NCBI GenBank assembly: GCA_001599295.1
Contig: BCGN01000007.1
Span: 1,264,186 to 1,328,185 of the forward strand
From: Sporopachydermia quercuum
Lineage: Eukaryota > Ascomycota > Sporopachydermiomycetes > Sporopachydermiales > Sporopachydermiaceae
DNA length: 64,000 nt
Direction: 5' to 3'
A program made the position numbers and the translations under genes. Of the stretch, positions 580 through 64,000 are shown one piece after another (within the stretch, counting starts at the first letter, position 1; each line of letters opens with the position of its first letter). The notes under the pieces were generated by a model that saw only the letters and a program-made list of their open reading frames with translations, was not told the origin of the DNA and ran no database searches.

Positions 580-1581
580 CTAATTGTACTGAATGCCATA
601 ATGACGCAGTCTAATAGAATTCAAATCCTCAGCATTCTGGACAACAATATTCCCATCAAGTAATAACCTGATAAAAGGATCATTAGCATTTTTTATCTTC
701 ACATAACGATTACTTTGCTTTAATGGATCACCATTAGTTAAGGCTGCACTTTCAACCATAGAATTCAATAAATCTTCTATGATTTCTGAATTTGCTTTCC
801 TTTGACGTTCTAAGTCTGCATGAGAAAAATTCCTTTCTTTATATAAATCAATCAAAACATATTTCCAGCAGTAAGCTATTAAATCTTTTAATGAATTCAT
901 CAAATCACTTGATCTTGAATTATACACAGCAATTTTCTTATCAATGTCATTTTGGAAGTCCTGAATAGGTTTCCCTAGATCTGTTTGCACAGCAGCTATT
1001 TTAGAAGCAATCATACTCTTCATTGCGATCAATTCCTCGTTCAGTTTCTTTTCTCGTTGTAATTGGGCTTTAGCTGTATTAATACGCGTTCCTAGCAAAT
1101 TTATTGCTTCCATGATGGATTCTATTTGATTTCCTAAGTTTATAGCTGCTAGAGTTGTTCCCAGTACCGAATCGTTACCTGGAACAACCGTGACACCAGT
1201 GCAAGCAATATTGATACCGGAAGCCTGACGTTTGAAGTCGACGATGGTTTGTTCTCTATCAAACGGTGCAGTTGATAGTGATGATGATGTGTTCTCTGTG
1301 GGTTTTGTAATAGAATTCTCGGTCACTTTTTTCTTGGTCACTTTTCCTTGTTTCTCTTCTTCATCTAGATTGAATCTCATTCTTTGCACTACTCTCATTG
1401 TCAATTGTTCGTGATTGGCAATTTGTTCTTTCAGTTTGTTGATATAAGCAGCTTCTGAGGCATGGAAGGAAGAAAGAGCACTTGATTCCTTCGCCGATGG
1501 AGCAATGTTGGCATCTTGTTGCCATGATGTGCTTAGATTCACGTAGTGTTTGATACGCGAGACAAGTTCTTGATCAACCAT
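580..1581 (-). CDS. CENP-K-like inner kinetochore protein (Sim4/Mcm22 family)
   Basis: A 333-residue protein starting at a clean ATG. The middle and C-terminal half (about residues 140-265) is rich in K, E, Q, L and I, as expected for coiled coil. The last 40 residues are the diagnostic part: RYVKIKN, then DPFIRLLLDGN, then EDLNSIRLRHYG. This follows the C-terminal signature of vertebrate CENP-K (PYVKI, PPYVELLLRNGIA, HPEDPTRIRLEAFH). CENP-K (Sim4 in fission yeast, Mcm22 in budding yeast) belongs to the CCAN/Ctf19 inner kinetochore at centromeric chromatin. The assignment rests on my alignment of this short motif from memory. The N-terminal half is S/T/K-rich and not recognisable. It is divergent from TIM8 with about 595 bp between starts. 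No introns are needed. Confidence 0.62.
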   Translation of the reverse strand: MVDQELVSRIKHYVNLSTSWQQDANIAPSAKESSALSSFHASEAAYINKLKEQIANHEQLTMRVVQRMRFNLDEEEKQGKVTKKKVTENSITKPTENTSSSLSTAPFDREQTIVDFKRQASGINIACTGVTVVPGNDSVLGTTLAAINLGNQIESIMEAINLLGTRINTAKAQLQREKKLNEELIAMKSMIASKIAAVQTDLGKPIQDFQNDIDKKIAVYNSRSSDLMNSLKDLIAYCWKYVLIDLYKERNFSHADLERQRKANSEIIEDLLNSMVESAALTNGDPLKQSNRYVKIKNANDPFIRLLLDGNIVVQNAEDLNSIRLRHYGIQYN

Positions 1582-6627: not shown

Positions 6628-8209
6628 GCGTATTTGATTGAAAGAAAGATTTGGAAATAAGACTTCATAGTGGAGCAAAAATCAGTATGCTGTCATAAAT
6701 AAGCAGTCAGTTAGCAAGATATTTGAGGTTAAAAGTTAATATTTGGTGGATGGCTCTAAGAAGTTTCTTATCAGATGGCATAAACTATGAAATGAATTTG
6801 CTATTAGCTATAAGCTAAGGAAGGAGTATCAATGAAAATTCAGATCACTGTTCACGGAGTTCAACATTATGTGATATTGTAACAGCTCATACAACCCTTC
6901 AGTTAATAGTAGGCTGGCTCATCATATGCTACTATCAGTCTAAATGATGTTGTATCCTGTTCATCATTTTCAAGACATTGCAATGGATGTGTTTTATGTT
7001 TATTGAATTGAATTATCTTTCATGATTCTGATGTTTACTAATGTTTAGGCAAGGCTTGCCTGACTCTCGCTTCATTACTTTCAACTTTATTTTCTGCTAG
7101 AACTCTTTTCACTCGGTCTTTTTCTTTTCAAACTATTGTTTATATATCATCATTTGCTGGACCGACTGGTTTATATGAACGTTTTTCTTCTTTTTTAAGT
7201 TTTTTTTCTTTCACTCCTTTTTTACTATATTTATTTTTTGTTTTCTTATTTTTTCATCTTGTTAGTATTTTTTTATATTTCTTTATTAATGTTTATTCCG
7301 TTCAGGTGACAATTGAATTTGGAAACGGACTAATTGGGATAGGGTTGGAAACATATGGCTGGATCAGAGGTTGGTTTGGTTTGATGGTTTGGTGGTTTTA
7401 GGAATATATCGTGTTGTTGACTTAATATAAGATATAGGTTTTATGTTATACGTTTGTATGCTTTCTTTTAGCGCTCTGCAAAGGATTGGTCTTATTTTCA
7501 AGTTGATTGGAAGTGAAACGAAGTTTACTGTGTCTTCGACTATGAGGCTGTGTTCCTATGGTTTGAGTCCTGGGAACTGAAACATTGTAGGATGTAGCAG
7601 CGCCTTTTATTGAATAAACTTCTCAGTAAAAATCAATTACTGAGGTAGTTGGTAATAAGTGTGAATGTAATCAANCGGCTGATGAAAATAAACCAATAAA
7701 GTAAAGAACTGTTTCTACGACCCCTTTTGTGTCCGATAAACTACATTTGGCAATTATTCGTTATCGGCAGCTGAGCAAATTAGGTCGCACATCATTTTTC
7801 TGCAGAGGACATGTTCTTGCATGTTTATGCATATACTTAACTTTACTGTTACTGACTTTTATTCGCAACGCGACTTTTCGGACATTCTTTATTTAGCGTA
7901 CGCTTGTCTCATTTCCCATCTCCGTTTGACCCCCCATTCCACAATGTCAATTAACACATGCACACAAAACAGCATCATTCCTCTTGAATACTTTTCAAAC
8001 TTGATCTATCAGATCATCTTTTCCTCCTTAACGTGCCGTCAGAAACTACATATATTGGCCTTTAAACGCTCCAGACGCTTCCAGACGCATATATTATCCT
8101 GAATTACCCGATAAATGCAATCTCAGCGAATTCCGACTCTAAAACTGTCGTAACGAACAAAACCTCCAGTTCCACAGTAATCTGTTCCGGCTGCACTGCA
8201 TTTGTCACC
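6628..8209. other. Intergenic, ATG1 3' flank and YIP4 promoter
   Basis: About 1.6 kb. A strongly T-rich tract lies at about 7080-7275. One TATGCATA occurs at 7826-7833 and one N at 7675. No gene is supported; the open frame at 7821-8102 shows no motif. Confidence 0.4.
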
Positions 8210-52913: not shown

Positions 52914-53792
52914 TGTAACGGGTACTGGTGATATTGGTGGCACTGAGGGGCAAACAGGATTCAGGATGGATAATAAACAGAAAAGATAACAAATTCAGCG
53001 GGTGGTTTTGTGGTTTCCGAGGTTAGATGTACGAGTTCCAAGTTCTGAGTTCCGAAATTGGTGATATGCAATATGCGATATACCGAGGGTGTTTAATTGA
53101 GAACAGTGCCTTTTTCATCCGTTCCGAAGGGTTAGGATTTTTCATGTGAGTGGGAGAGTCAGAGTTCTTGCGGCGAATAAATGTCCGGAAGAATTTCGAG
53201 GAAATGGACTGTATCACGTGATTAAATGCAAATGCAAGCGTAGAATTTTCATGTTATAAATATACATTTGACGTCCTAACACAACTGTAAATGGTTGTTG
53301 AAACAGAAGAAATCAAAAACAATCAAATTTAAGTGGAAATAGCAGTATTCCATGAGCCCATACCAGCCGTGATATTCCTCTAATTGGTACTAGTAGGAGG
53401 ATGGGAACTTAGACAAGCACCAGTGTCTGTCCAGTTCATTGTCTCAAAACAGATTTCAATACCAACTACATCCCAAATTGTTTTCTCTTCCATACCTCCC
53501 AAAGCAACAATGCCCACCCATAACTCCCAATCACCTCCCATATCATACTCTCTCCTCCTCCCTCCTTGTCTTTGGAACACCCCCAAGCACTCAATTTCTC
53601 CATTCCATTAATAAAATCATCGAACATACACCTTTAGAAGTTATATTAACATTAATATCAATGAATTAATATGTTTTCAGTGCTTATTTTGTCATTTAAT
53701 TCTATTTCACTGTTAGAATTTCCCTGTGCGAAGCAGAAAGACTGTTTGTTGCTACAAATCAAATACACATTATCAGCACAAGACATCCAATT
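52914..53792. other. Divergent promoter region, PRP39 / HEM3
   Basis: About 880 bp between divergent genes. A C-rich, apparently low-information segment at 53380-53600 gives open frames on both strands without motifs. No gene is supported. Confidence 0.4.
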
Positions 53793-55440
53793 ATGAGTGA
53801 AAGTATGTTGAAGTGTGACTAGGAGTTTAGTTTAATTTTCGAACAGAAGATAGGAATAGAATATCTGTCTGTTAATATTATTAGTGATTTACTACCAATT
53901 TACTAGGAAACTACGAATAATATCACAAATCCGTGCAAATGCCAATACTAATACTAGTTAGATAAACGGGTAATCAGAATCGGCGGACGGAGATCCAAAC
54001 TGGCGGTTGTGCAGTCTGAAATGGTGAAATCTCAATTGGAATCGGTAGCCCCAGACATCTCGTTCGAAGTAATAGCTCTAGAAACTTTGGGCGATAAAGT
54101 ACTTGATCGTTCTTTATATTCCTTTGGCGGGAAAGCTTTATGGACAAAAGAACTGGAAGTGCTGCTTTTGCAGGACATCGAGCCATTCAGGAAGATTGAT
54201 TTGATCGTTCATTCTTTGAAAGATATGCCAACAGTTCTACCGCAAGAGTTTGAACTTGGGGCAATTTCTGAACGGGAAGACCCCCGAGATGCACTGGTTA
54301 TGAAAGCAGGTTCGTCGGATAATACGTTGGATGATCTTCCTGATGGGAGTGTTGTGGGGACGTCGTCAATTAGACGGTCGGCCCAGTTGAAGATTCATTA
54401 TCCTCGACTTGAATTTGAGAGTGTTCGAGGGAATGTGTAAGTATTTCTGATACGTGAAGGAATAGAAGGAAAGGAATAAGAGGATGGCTGTTGATATAAC
54501 AGTCTTGTAAATAGTTCAGAACCGCGAAGTAACAAGTGACAGTGTGACAGTGTGAATATTAGAAGAACGTTTGTCCAGGATTGTCCAGGAGTGTGCAGGA
54601 CCACTTGTAGGCTTTTCACTGCGAAAAGTGAATAGTCTATTCTCTCTGACAGATTTAATGATTTAGTTTGGTTTCTTTCTGAGTCTATTGCAATTGAATT
54701 ATTCGATCAAGTGTTTCCTGCTGACCCGAATTGCAGTCAAGCGCATTCCTGAGTAAGCTAGTGGTAGCTGTTGAGCAGCAGAGAGCGCAGGAAGCCGAAG
54801 CAGAATGTTGATACTGAAATCTCAGTAGTCACCCATAGCTGAGATCAAGAAGCTCTTTTACTCCGTTATTCCTTCTTTTATTGGCATCCTCCTTTGTTCT
54901 ATCTTTAGCAACGGAATTCTAACTGTTTATTATAGGCAAACAAGACTTTCTAAACTAGACGATCCAGAAGGCAAATTCAGATGTATTATTCTAGCAGCAG
55001 CAGGATTGGTGAGATTAGGCCTGAAAGATAGAATTACCAGTTATCTTGAGCCTCCTATTATGTATCACGCTGTTGGTCAAGGAGCATTAGGCATTGAAAT
55101 TAAAAAAGGAGATACTGAGATTATTGAGCTGTTAAAGAAAGTCGAGAGCATTGATACCACTTATAGATGCCTTGCTGAAAGAAGTTTAATGAGGACACTT
55201 GAAGGAGGCTGTTCTGTTCCAATTGGTGTGAATAGTAGTTATGATGCGAATACTAAGACTCTTAGTATATCTGGTATTGTTGTTAGTGTTGACGGCACTG
55301 AGCATGTCAAGGCTGACTTGTTCAAAGTTATAGAAAATAAGCAAGATGCTGAAGATGTAGGAAAAGAGCTTGCTGTTAAGCTTACTGATTTGGGAGCCAA
55401 GAAGATCCTTGATGCTATTAATTTAGAGAAGCTTTCATAG
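53793..55440 (+). CDS. HEM3: Hydroxymethylbilane synthase (porphobilinogen deaminase, three exons)
   Basis: Exons 53793-53802 (only 10 nt), 53962-54436 and 54936-55440 join to 990 nt and 329 residues (budding-yeast Hem3 is 327). Intron 1: GTATGT, TACTAAT, TTAG. Intron 2 (499 nt): GTAAGT, TCTAAC, ATAG. The joined start [20 protein letters not shown] restores the conserved IGSRxSxLA motif. Further motifs: [21 protein letters not shown] (catalytic Asp91), [31 protein letters not shown] across the second junction, and [10 protein letters not shown] with Cys254, the dipyrromethane cofactor attachment. It joins four porphobilinogens into hydroxymethylbilane, the third step of heme synthesis, in the cytosol. 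The 10-nt first exon carries the start codon, so splicing is essential. Its 3' flank has one UAUUUAU core at 55506-55512. Confidence 0.97.
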
Positions 55441-61945: not shown

Positions 61946-63199
61946 TTATGATGATCTCAAGATATTTATGGCTTCTTCCACGTGTTCATCCTGGTCCTGC
62001 ATCCACAACCACGGGAATTGCTTACTGAGTCGCTCTGCTACCTTAGCACGGTCATCCAGATAGCCATCTAGTTCAAAATCGTAAAGTTGACCACATTCCC
62101 TACTACCCTTCACCACTCTCGATGCCCTTGGTCTTCGAACAGTGTCAAATGCCTTAAATACTCTAACAATATCACTAGTATCCTTCACTGACGGATCATT
62201 GAGCAAATGACTCAAAACCATAGAATCTTCAATTGCCTGGCCCGCACCTGCACCTTGGTGTGGTGAAGTACCATGTGCAGCATCACCAATTATTAAGATN
62301 CTTCCCTTGTAATAAGTTTCAGCGCTTGGTGTATCAAAAATAGCCCATACCTGAGTTTGCTCCATGAGATTGACAATCTTGGTAACAGGTTCACCCCAGC
62401 CAGCATAGTCCTTCAGTAGTCTCTCTCCAGAAAACTTTGCAATCCACTCTCCCTCCCATTTCTCTTGGGTTTTGAAAGCAACGATATTCAAAGTTTTACC
62501 ATGTTCTATTGGGAATGTCAGAATATGCCCATTATGTCCAAGGTACATCTGTGAGTTTCTCGCGAACTCATCTCCAATTGCTGCGACTGCAACTTCCATT
62601 GGAATCAATCCCCTATAAGCATACTTATGGCTGAACGTTGGCTCTCTGTTCTCGGGTTCCACTACTACTTTTCTTAAAACAGACTTTATACCATCACAAC
62701 CAACAACTGCATCTGCGATATGACTAGTTCCATCACTAAAATACAAAGTGACAGGCCCGTCACCGTTCGCTGATTCTTCAACACGCTCTAATCTCTTTTG
62801 GAAATGGACCAACTCAGGGGGAAAATTTTCAACCAATGAACTTAAGAACCTTGCCCGGTGAACACTATTCTGACCGTAAACAGGACATATAACACTTTGG
62901 ATTAACTCAGGATTCCCTTNTCCCATTCGAAAATCAAAGTACACTTCCTTCTTCTCAGTCCATCCATTGTAGGTAACATTCTTCTCAAAAGCTTTTTCTA
63001 CATCTTCGGAAATTCTCTTCATTGCCTCGACTGCGTTCATACCAAATGAAACTCCAGCACCAATCTCCTTGAATTCAGAGGCCTGTTCAAACATGTCTAC
63101 TTCGATCCCTCTACTCAACAGCCCCATAGCCAACGTGACACCAGCTATTCCACCTCCTACTATAGCTAATTTCAACTGCTTTCTTGACGAATTAGTCAT
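61946..63199 (-). CDS. FAD-dependent monooxygenase, salicylate-hydroxylase-like
   Basis: A 417-residue protein from the ATG at 63199; the frame extends 18 bp upstream only from a non-ATG codon. It has the FAD Rossmann motif LAIVGGGIAGVTLAMGLLSRG (GxGxxG at 15-20) ending in an acidic FEQ; conserved Arg near VHRARFLSSL; the DG motif VVGCDGIKSVLR; and the second FAD motif IIGDAAHGTSPHQGAGAGQAIED. These are class A flavoprotein aromatic hydroxylase features, group of salicylate 1-monooxygenase and 6-hydroxynicotinate-type enzymes. Substrate cannot be inferred. It would use NAD(P)H and O2 to hydroxylate an aromatic acid. It is the last gene before the G-rich terminal repeat (start about 700 bp away). 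Ns at 62300 and 62920. Confidence 0.88.
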   Translation of the reverse strand: MTNSSRKQLKLAIVGGGIAGVTLAMGLLSRGIEVDMFEQASEFKEIGAGVSFGMNAVEAMKRISEDVEKAFEKNVTYNGWTEKKEVYFDFRMGXGNPELIQSVICPVYGQNSVHRARFLSSLVENFPPELVHFQKRLERVEESANGDGPVTLYFSDGTSHIADAVVGCDGIKSVLRKVVVEPENREPTFSHKYAYRGLIPMEVAVAAIGDEFARNSQMYLGHNGHILTFPIEHGKTLNIVAFKTQEKWEGEWIAKFSGERLLKDYAGWGEPVTKIVNLMEQTQVWAIFDTPSAETYYKGXILIIGDAAHGTSPHQGAGAGQAIEDSMVLSHLLNDPSVKDTSDIVRVFKAFDTVRRPRASRVVKGSRECGQLYDFELDGYLDDRAKVAERLSKQFPWLWMQDQDEHVEEAINILRSS

Positions 63200-63905
63200 A
63201 ACTACTGATCCTATCACTGCAATATCTAGTTTCTGAATGAAGCTTGAGCTCGAGATATGTCTTAGAGACTCAATAAATCTCGATTCTAGTATTAAAAATA
63301 AAATCGCACAATATAAGTAAAATCAAAATCAAAATCAAAATCAAAAGGCCCACCCACAAGCACAAGAAATACAGATGCAGACAAGCTCCGTCTTATATGT
63401 GATTTCGATATTTCAATAGACCCACAAGTTAAGGATAGACATATTCGGATACATATTCAACAGCAGGTGATCGTATAGTTAATAAGGTGTATATTAATGA
63501 GCCAATCATACCAGGACCCAACTTTGTTGTTGGAAGCACGTAGCCGATAGTTTCTCTGTGTTCCAATTCAGGGCTTGATAATGATTTGTTCTCTTCTATT
63601 TACATACCTTTTGGTCTGGCTTCCATAGATTCAGAGACAGTTTAGCCAATGTATGAAAACCGAAATGATGCTACCCCAAAGTACGAGATTAGAATTCGAG
63701 CAAATCTAATTAATATACGAGATTTGTATCGTATCGGATAGCTGACAAGCTTTTTCGGAAGTGCAGTCATGAAAACCTTAAAAGAGTCTACGTTAATTAT
63801 TATAGCCGAATCCATAACGTTTTCGCAAACATATAATAGCATAAAACTAAGGAGTGCAATACATAATAATCACTCTAAATTAAGAAACATACGATTCAAA
63901 CATAT
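63200..63905. other. Monooxygenase promoter to terminal repeat
   Basis: About 700 bp: promoter of the monooxygenase, a short AAAATC microsatellite and otherwise AT-rich sequence. No coding segment is supported. Confidence 0.4.
63319..63346. repeat. AAAATC microsatellite
   Basis: Four perfect AAAATC units followed by AAAA, in the promoter of the monooxygenase about 120 bp from its start. Confidence 0.9.
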
Positions 63906-64000
63906 GAGGTAGTTGGGAGGTAGTTGGGAGGTAGTTGGGAGGTAGTTGGGAGGTAGTTGGGAGGTAGTTGGGAGGTAGTTGGGAGGTAGTTGGGAGGTAG
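63906..64000 (+). repeat. 11-bp G-rich tandem repeat at the window end (candidate telomere)
   Basis: Unit GAGGTAGTTGG repeated perfectly eight times plus seven bases, running to the final base. The G-rich strand reads 5' to 3' towards the end, the orientation of a right-hand telomere. Preceding sequence is ordinary unique DNA with no degenerate copies. Yeast telomere units vary widely in length and sequence, and I do not recall this exact unit. The window may be cut from a longer contig, so an internal minisatellite is not excluded. Confidence 0.75.

Follow-up and report, generated by a model that had tools for sequence, protein, structure and literature searches.

The final 95 bases of the window, by which we mean the whole stretch of 64,000 nucleotides analysed here, very probably form the chromosome-side part of a telomere, built by telomerase in an ascomycete yeast whose CTG codons specify leucine, and cut short by the assembler. 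The array, the spacer behind it and the last gene before it are arranged as follows.

63906 to 64000, plus strand: perfect tandem array of 8.6 copies of GAGGTAGTTGG, the inner part of a probable telomere, defined by its period and by Tandem Repeats Finder.
63200 to 63905, no strand: AT-rich subtelomeric spacer of 706 bp (GC 0.347), unrepeated elsewhere in the window.
61946 to 63199, minus strand: gene for an FAD-binding monooxygenase-like protein of 417 aa (Pfam PF01494), the last gene before the array.

All of the bases in the array (95/95) keep to a perfect period of 11, with the unit GAGGTAGTTGG or, in another rotation, GGGAGGTAGTT. Tandem Repeats Finder describes it as 8.6 copies with 100% matches and a score of 190. 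Over the whole window the program returned 15 rows, the runner-up to the terminal array scoring 74, and the top score reached in random windows (n = 60, first-order Markov) was 66. Each unit contains six G and no C, giving a GC skew of 1.0 on the plus strand, and a random 11-mer drawn from the base composition of the window would lack C and contain at least six G with a probability of 0.0029. The G strand runs 5' to 3' outward as far as the last base at the right edge; the array thus touches base 64000, the final base of the window, which may itself have been cut at that position. The inner border is abrupt, the phase of the 11-base repeat being broken at base 63905 (T), and a blastn search (E up to 0.01) with the 2 kb preceding the array matched nothing else in the window. 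Beyond the array, the repeat is matched exactly over no more than 11 bases on either strand, by one unit at 7642; our own arithmetic puts the expected number of such matches at ∼0.3. The description in the earlier note, of identical 11-bp copies with the G strand towards the end and unique DNA directly before them, is therefore borne out in each of these points. Folding of the array as a single strand, with a tool that does not model G-quadruplexes, yielded nothing.

The arm behind the array is an ordinary eukaryotic one, ascomycete in type, gene-bearing and with few introns. The FAD-binding monooxygenase-like gene points away from the array, and further genes along the arm match the Atg1, Yip1, PRP39 and riboflavin kinase families as well as Prp28 and GCN1 (7nrc_A). 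Three introns were located by frame continuity, with donors GTAAGT, GTGAGT and GTAAGT; their CTAAC branch motifs precede the end of the acceptor by 13, 20 and 13 bases. One gene, at 53961 to 55440, is porphobilinogen deaminase-like (HEM3-like) and carries a 499-base intron; the gene beside it, which is CWC2-like, has introns of 97 and 256 bases. Near the other edge of the window (580 to 1581, minus strand) a 333-aa protein matches CENP-K weakly (E 0.00043, 20.4 bits, under the Pfam cut-off of 27.2), and it is possible that this is a kinetochore protein. The window contains 19 isolated single-base Ns, spread from 4477 to 62920, and no N runs. These single Ns probably represent ambiguity codes that were masked, and would be consistent with a heterozygous strain or with an ALLPATHS-type assembly.

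We favour a telomere because the array combines a perfect period, a sharp start, a unit with six G and no C, and a G strand directed outward to the last base; because by score (190 against 74) no other tandem array in the window comes near it, and it lies on a gene-bearing eukaryotic arm; and because a unit of 11 nt falls within the range in print for yeasts, the units given in the consulted extract of a paper on Saccharomycetaceae spanning 6 to 28 nt (PMC8211666). We infer from this that base 64000 is the end of the contig, that the array lies at a chromosome end and that telomerase was its maker. Telomerase would extend the chromosome end by copying a C-rich RNA template that consists of permuted CCAACTACCTC and exceeds one unit in length, thereby producing identical 11-nt units on the G strand. 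The assembler would then have no way to place k-mers made up of repeat alone, and the contig would stop after 95 bases. Against a telomere stands the size of the evidence base, which consists of a single array at one edge of the window.

The length of the array is itself informative, as 95 equals K-1 for K = 96. According to an extract of one paper, ALLPATHS-LG by default builds its initial unipaths at a k-mer size of 96 (PMC5905499). We assembled the window's own flank, followed by varying numbers of copies of the unit, in a small k-mer graph test. At K = 96, 9 copies (99 bp) were assembled whole, and arrays of 10, 12, 20 and 40 copies all stopped at 95 array bases. Since the observed length is K-1 for K = 96, the contig probably stops at the array because the assembly collapsed there, and the true array extends further; the single Ns could likewise reflect the ambiguity codes of an ALLPATHS-type assembly. 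It also follows that neither '8.6 copies' nor 'no degenerate copies' describes the real telomere, because the length was set by the assembler's k. The earlier note had read the perfection of the copies as a sign of telomerase, and that argument loses its weight, as an assembler working at k = 96 leaves exactly 95 bases of any longer perfect array. Its broader proposal, that the array is the product of telomerase, fares better: this is still the best explanation, and 11 nt is within the yeast range in print, although two of the note's arguments are weaker than they were made out to be. For surveys of contig ends more generally, an array length of exactly K-1 indicates truncation by the assembler, and the copy number and perfection of arrays truncated in this way should not be taken as biology.

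The same test bears on the alternative that deserves most attention, namely a minisatellite, interior or subtelomeric, that caused the assembler to break, the true telomere having another sequence and lying further out. An interior array of at least 10 copies with unique DNA beyond it gave an identical K-1 stop in the K = 96 graph. The 95-base length thus supports a contig end and a longer array but does not by itself support a chromosome end, because interior arrays stop alike, and the fact that a single array was seen also suits a minisatellite. The unit, however, is free of C, rich in G and directed outward, and its composition alone has a chance of 0.003. The copies at the border show no divergence, and the window contains no second comparable array. 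In addition, mate pairs would often be expected to bridge a long interior array, and these 64 kb are without N runs. On balance we regard a minisatellite as unlikely.

An artefact of assembly or library preparation, such as a concatemer, or a low-complexity end that is adaptor-like or misjoined, with no counterpart in the genome, is a much poorer explanation and in our judgement very improbable. Contig ends are where assembly errors gather, and the length of the array was indeed set by the assembler's k. Nevertheless, an error would hardly yield 95 perfect bases of period 11 with telomere-like composition and orientation, and the K-1 stop itself needs reads that hold a longer array. As a check for contamination, exact matches to three units of the motif were sought and numbered 0 in prokaryotic and 0 in viral contig collections (genome_contigs, viral_contigs), where a common adaptor contaminant might have matched; this absence also counts towards a telomere. 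An interstitial relic, in which the species' true telomeric repeats lie inside a chromosome after fusion or repair, is scarcely credible either: an extract of one paper does record such interstitial arrays in other fungi (PMC8381367), but the outward orientation and the position at the window's edge suit a true end at least equally well, and 8.6 perfect units free of decay would be unusual for a relic.

Returning to the telomere, the genes of the arm give some indication of the yeast to which it would belong. The PRP28 gene has 14 CTG codons, 12 of which fall within its alignment to the best solved homologue, 5dtu_A. Inspection by eye shows these 12 codons facing Leu eight times, Ile three times and Met once in the homologue, and never Ser or Ala. 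CTG is therefore read as leucine, which makes a CUG-Ser or CUG-Ala yeast unlikely. The same gene scores 626 bits with 5dtu_A against 385 bits with 5zwn_y, which we take to come from Chaetomium and S. cerevisiae, respectively. GTATGT is the splice signal of S. cerevisiae, and it is missing from the splice signals of the three introns located in the window. Taken together, the PRP28 scores and the splice signals suggest, without proving it, a lineage outside the Saccharomycetaceae.

The repeat can be compared with those given for other yeasts in the extracts of the papers cited here. In the Yarrowia clade, a 10-nt unit, 5'-TTNNNNAGGG-3', is given for 12 of 13 species, the motifs having been taken from scaffold ends or from telomerase RNA templates (PMC6746865). 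As in that clade, the unit described here is short and perfect, of nearly equal length, and has its G-rich strand outward. It differs in having 11 rather than 10 nt, and GGGAGGTAGTT lacks the TT-NNNN-AGGG pattern; no rotation of the 11-nt unit fits TTNNNNAGGG. The telomeric repeat of Saccharomycopsis fibuligera, TAAGGGTGGTG, also has 11 nt (PMC10100673), and the two share the absence of C and the presence of GGG and GG runs, but their sequences are different. Moreover, Saccharomycopsis belongs to the CUG-Ser2 clade (PMC6692504), in contrast to the window, in which CTG is leucine. Lipomyces oligophaga has an 8-nt repeat, TTTGAGGG, found also at other large contig ends (PMC6692504), and Trichomonascus vanleenenianus a 9-nt repeat, TAGAACGGG (PMC13130702). 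These are likewise lineage-specific, G-rich repeats, found at yeast contig ends, where our array probably lies too, and they differ from it in length and sequence.

A full-text literature search of article texts with rotations and fragments of the motif, spelt in plain letters and on both strands, found no use of it as a telomeric repeat among the matches listed. Two of these matches, both from papers about telomeres, proved to be a cloning primer (PMC8820739) and a substrate oligonucleotide (PMC2806009). The repeat had previously been put forward as a candidate new telomeric repeat. The claim of novelty is weaker than it was stated, because motif lists for more than 200 species are in print: a letter by Cervenak and others refers to candidate motifs for that many species in two papers (PMC10433822).

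We also searched the window for a telomerase RNA and a possible template. Rfam returned no family at its gathering score, and no perfect 13-base complement of the repeat was found in the window outside the array. The nearest complement, CCAACTACATCCC at 53462, was rejected as a template because, with its single mismatch, it would give rise to a different repeat. The 13-base complement piece CCAACTACCTCCC has six imperfect relatives outside the array, located as follows.

7640, 43330, 44813, 49829, 53462 and 53527: matches to CCAACTACCTCCC with one or two mismatches.

In shuffled windows, counted over the whole window, the mean number of such matches was 0.77 and the largest count 4; when the pattern itself was letter-shuffled 60 times and compared with the same DNA, the mean was 1.03 and the maximum 4. 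The excess of relatives is real and counts against a telomere, since the motif may be similar to an element of an ordinary kind. Upstream of the HEM3-like gene, two of the relatives occur at a spacing of 65 bases.

Among these fungi, a group known for very diverse telomere motifs, the repeat is probably one more lineage-specific motif and ordinary by kind. A stronger claim, which we hold only tentatively and consider doubtful, would make GGGAGGTAGTT the telomeric repeat, so far unreported, of a yeast lineage that branched early and reads CTG as leucine; as the repeat retains no TTAGGG core, the telomerase RNA template and the double-strand telomere-binding protein would both have shifted from their ancestral specificity. 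If the array is present at other contig ends, it would enrich the record of concerted change between yeast telomerase RNA templates and telomere-binding proteins by one clean unit of 11 nt, and would provide a direct handle for finding the telomerase RNA of the species.
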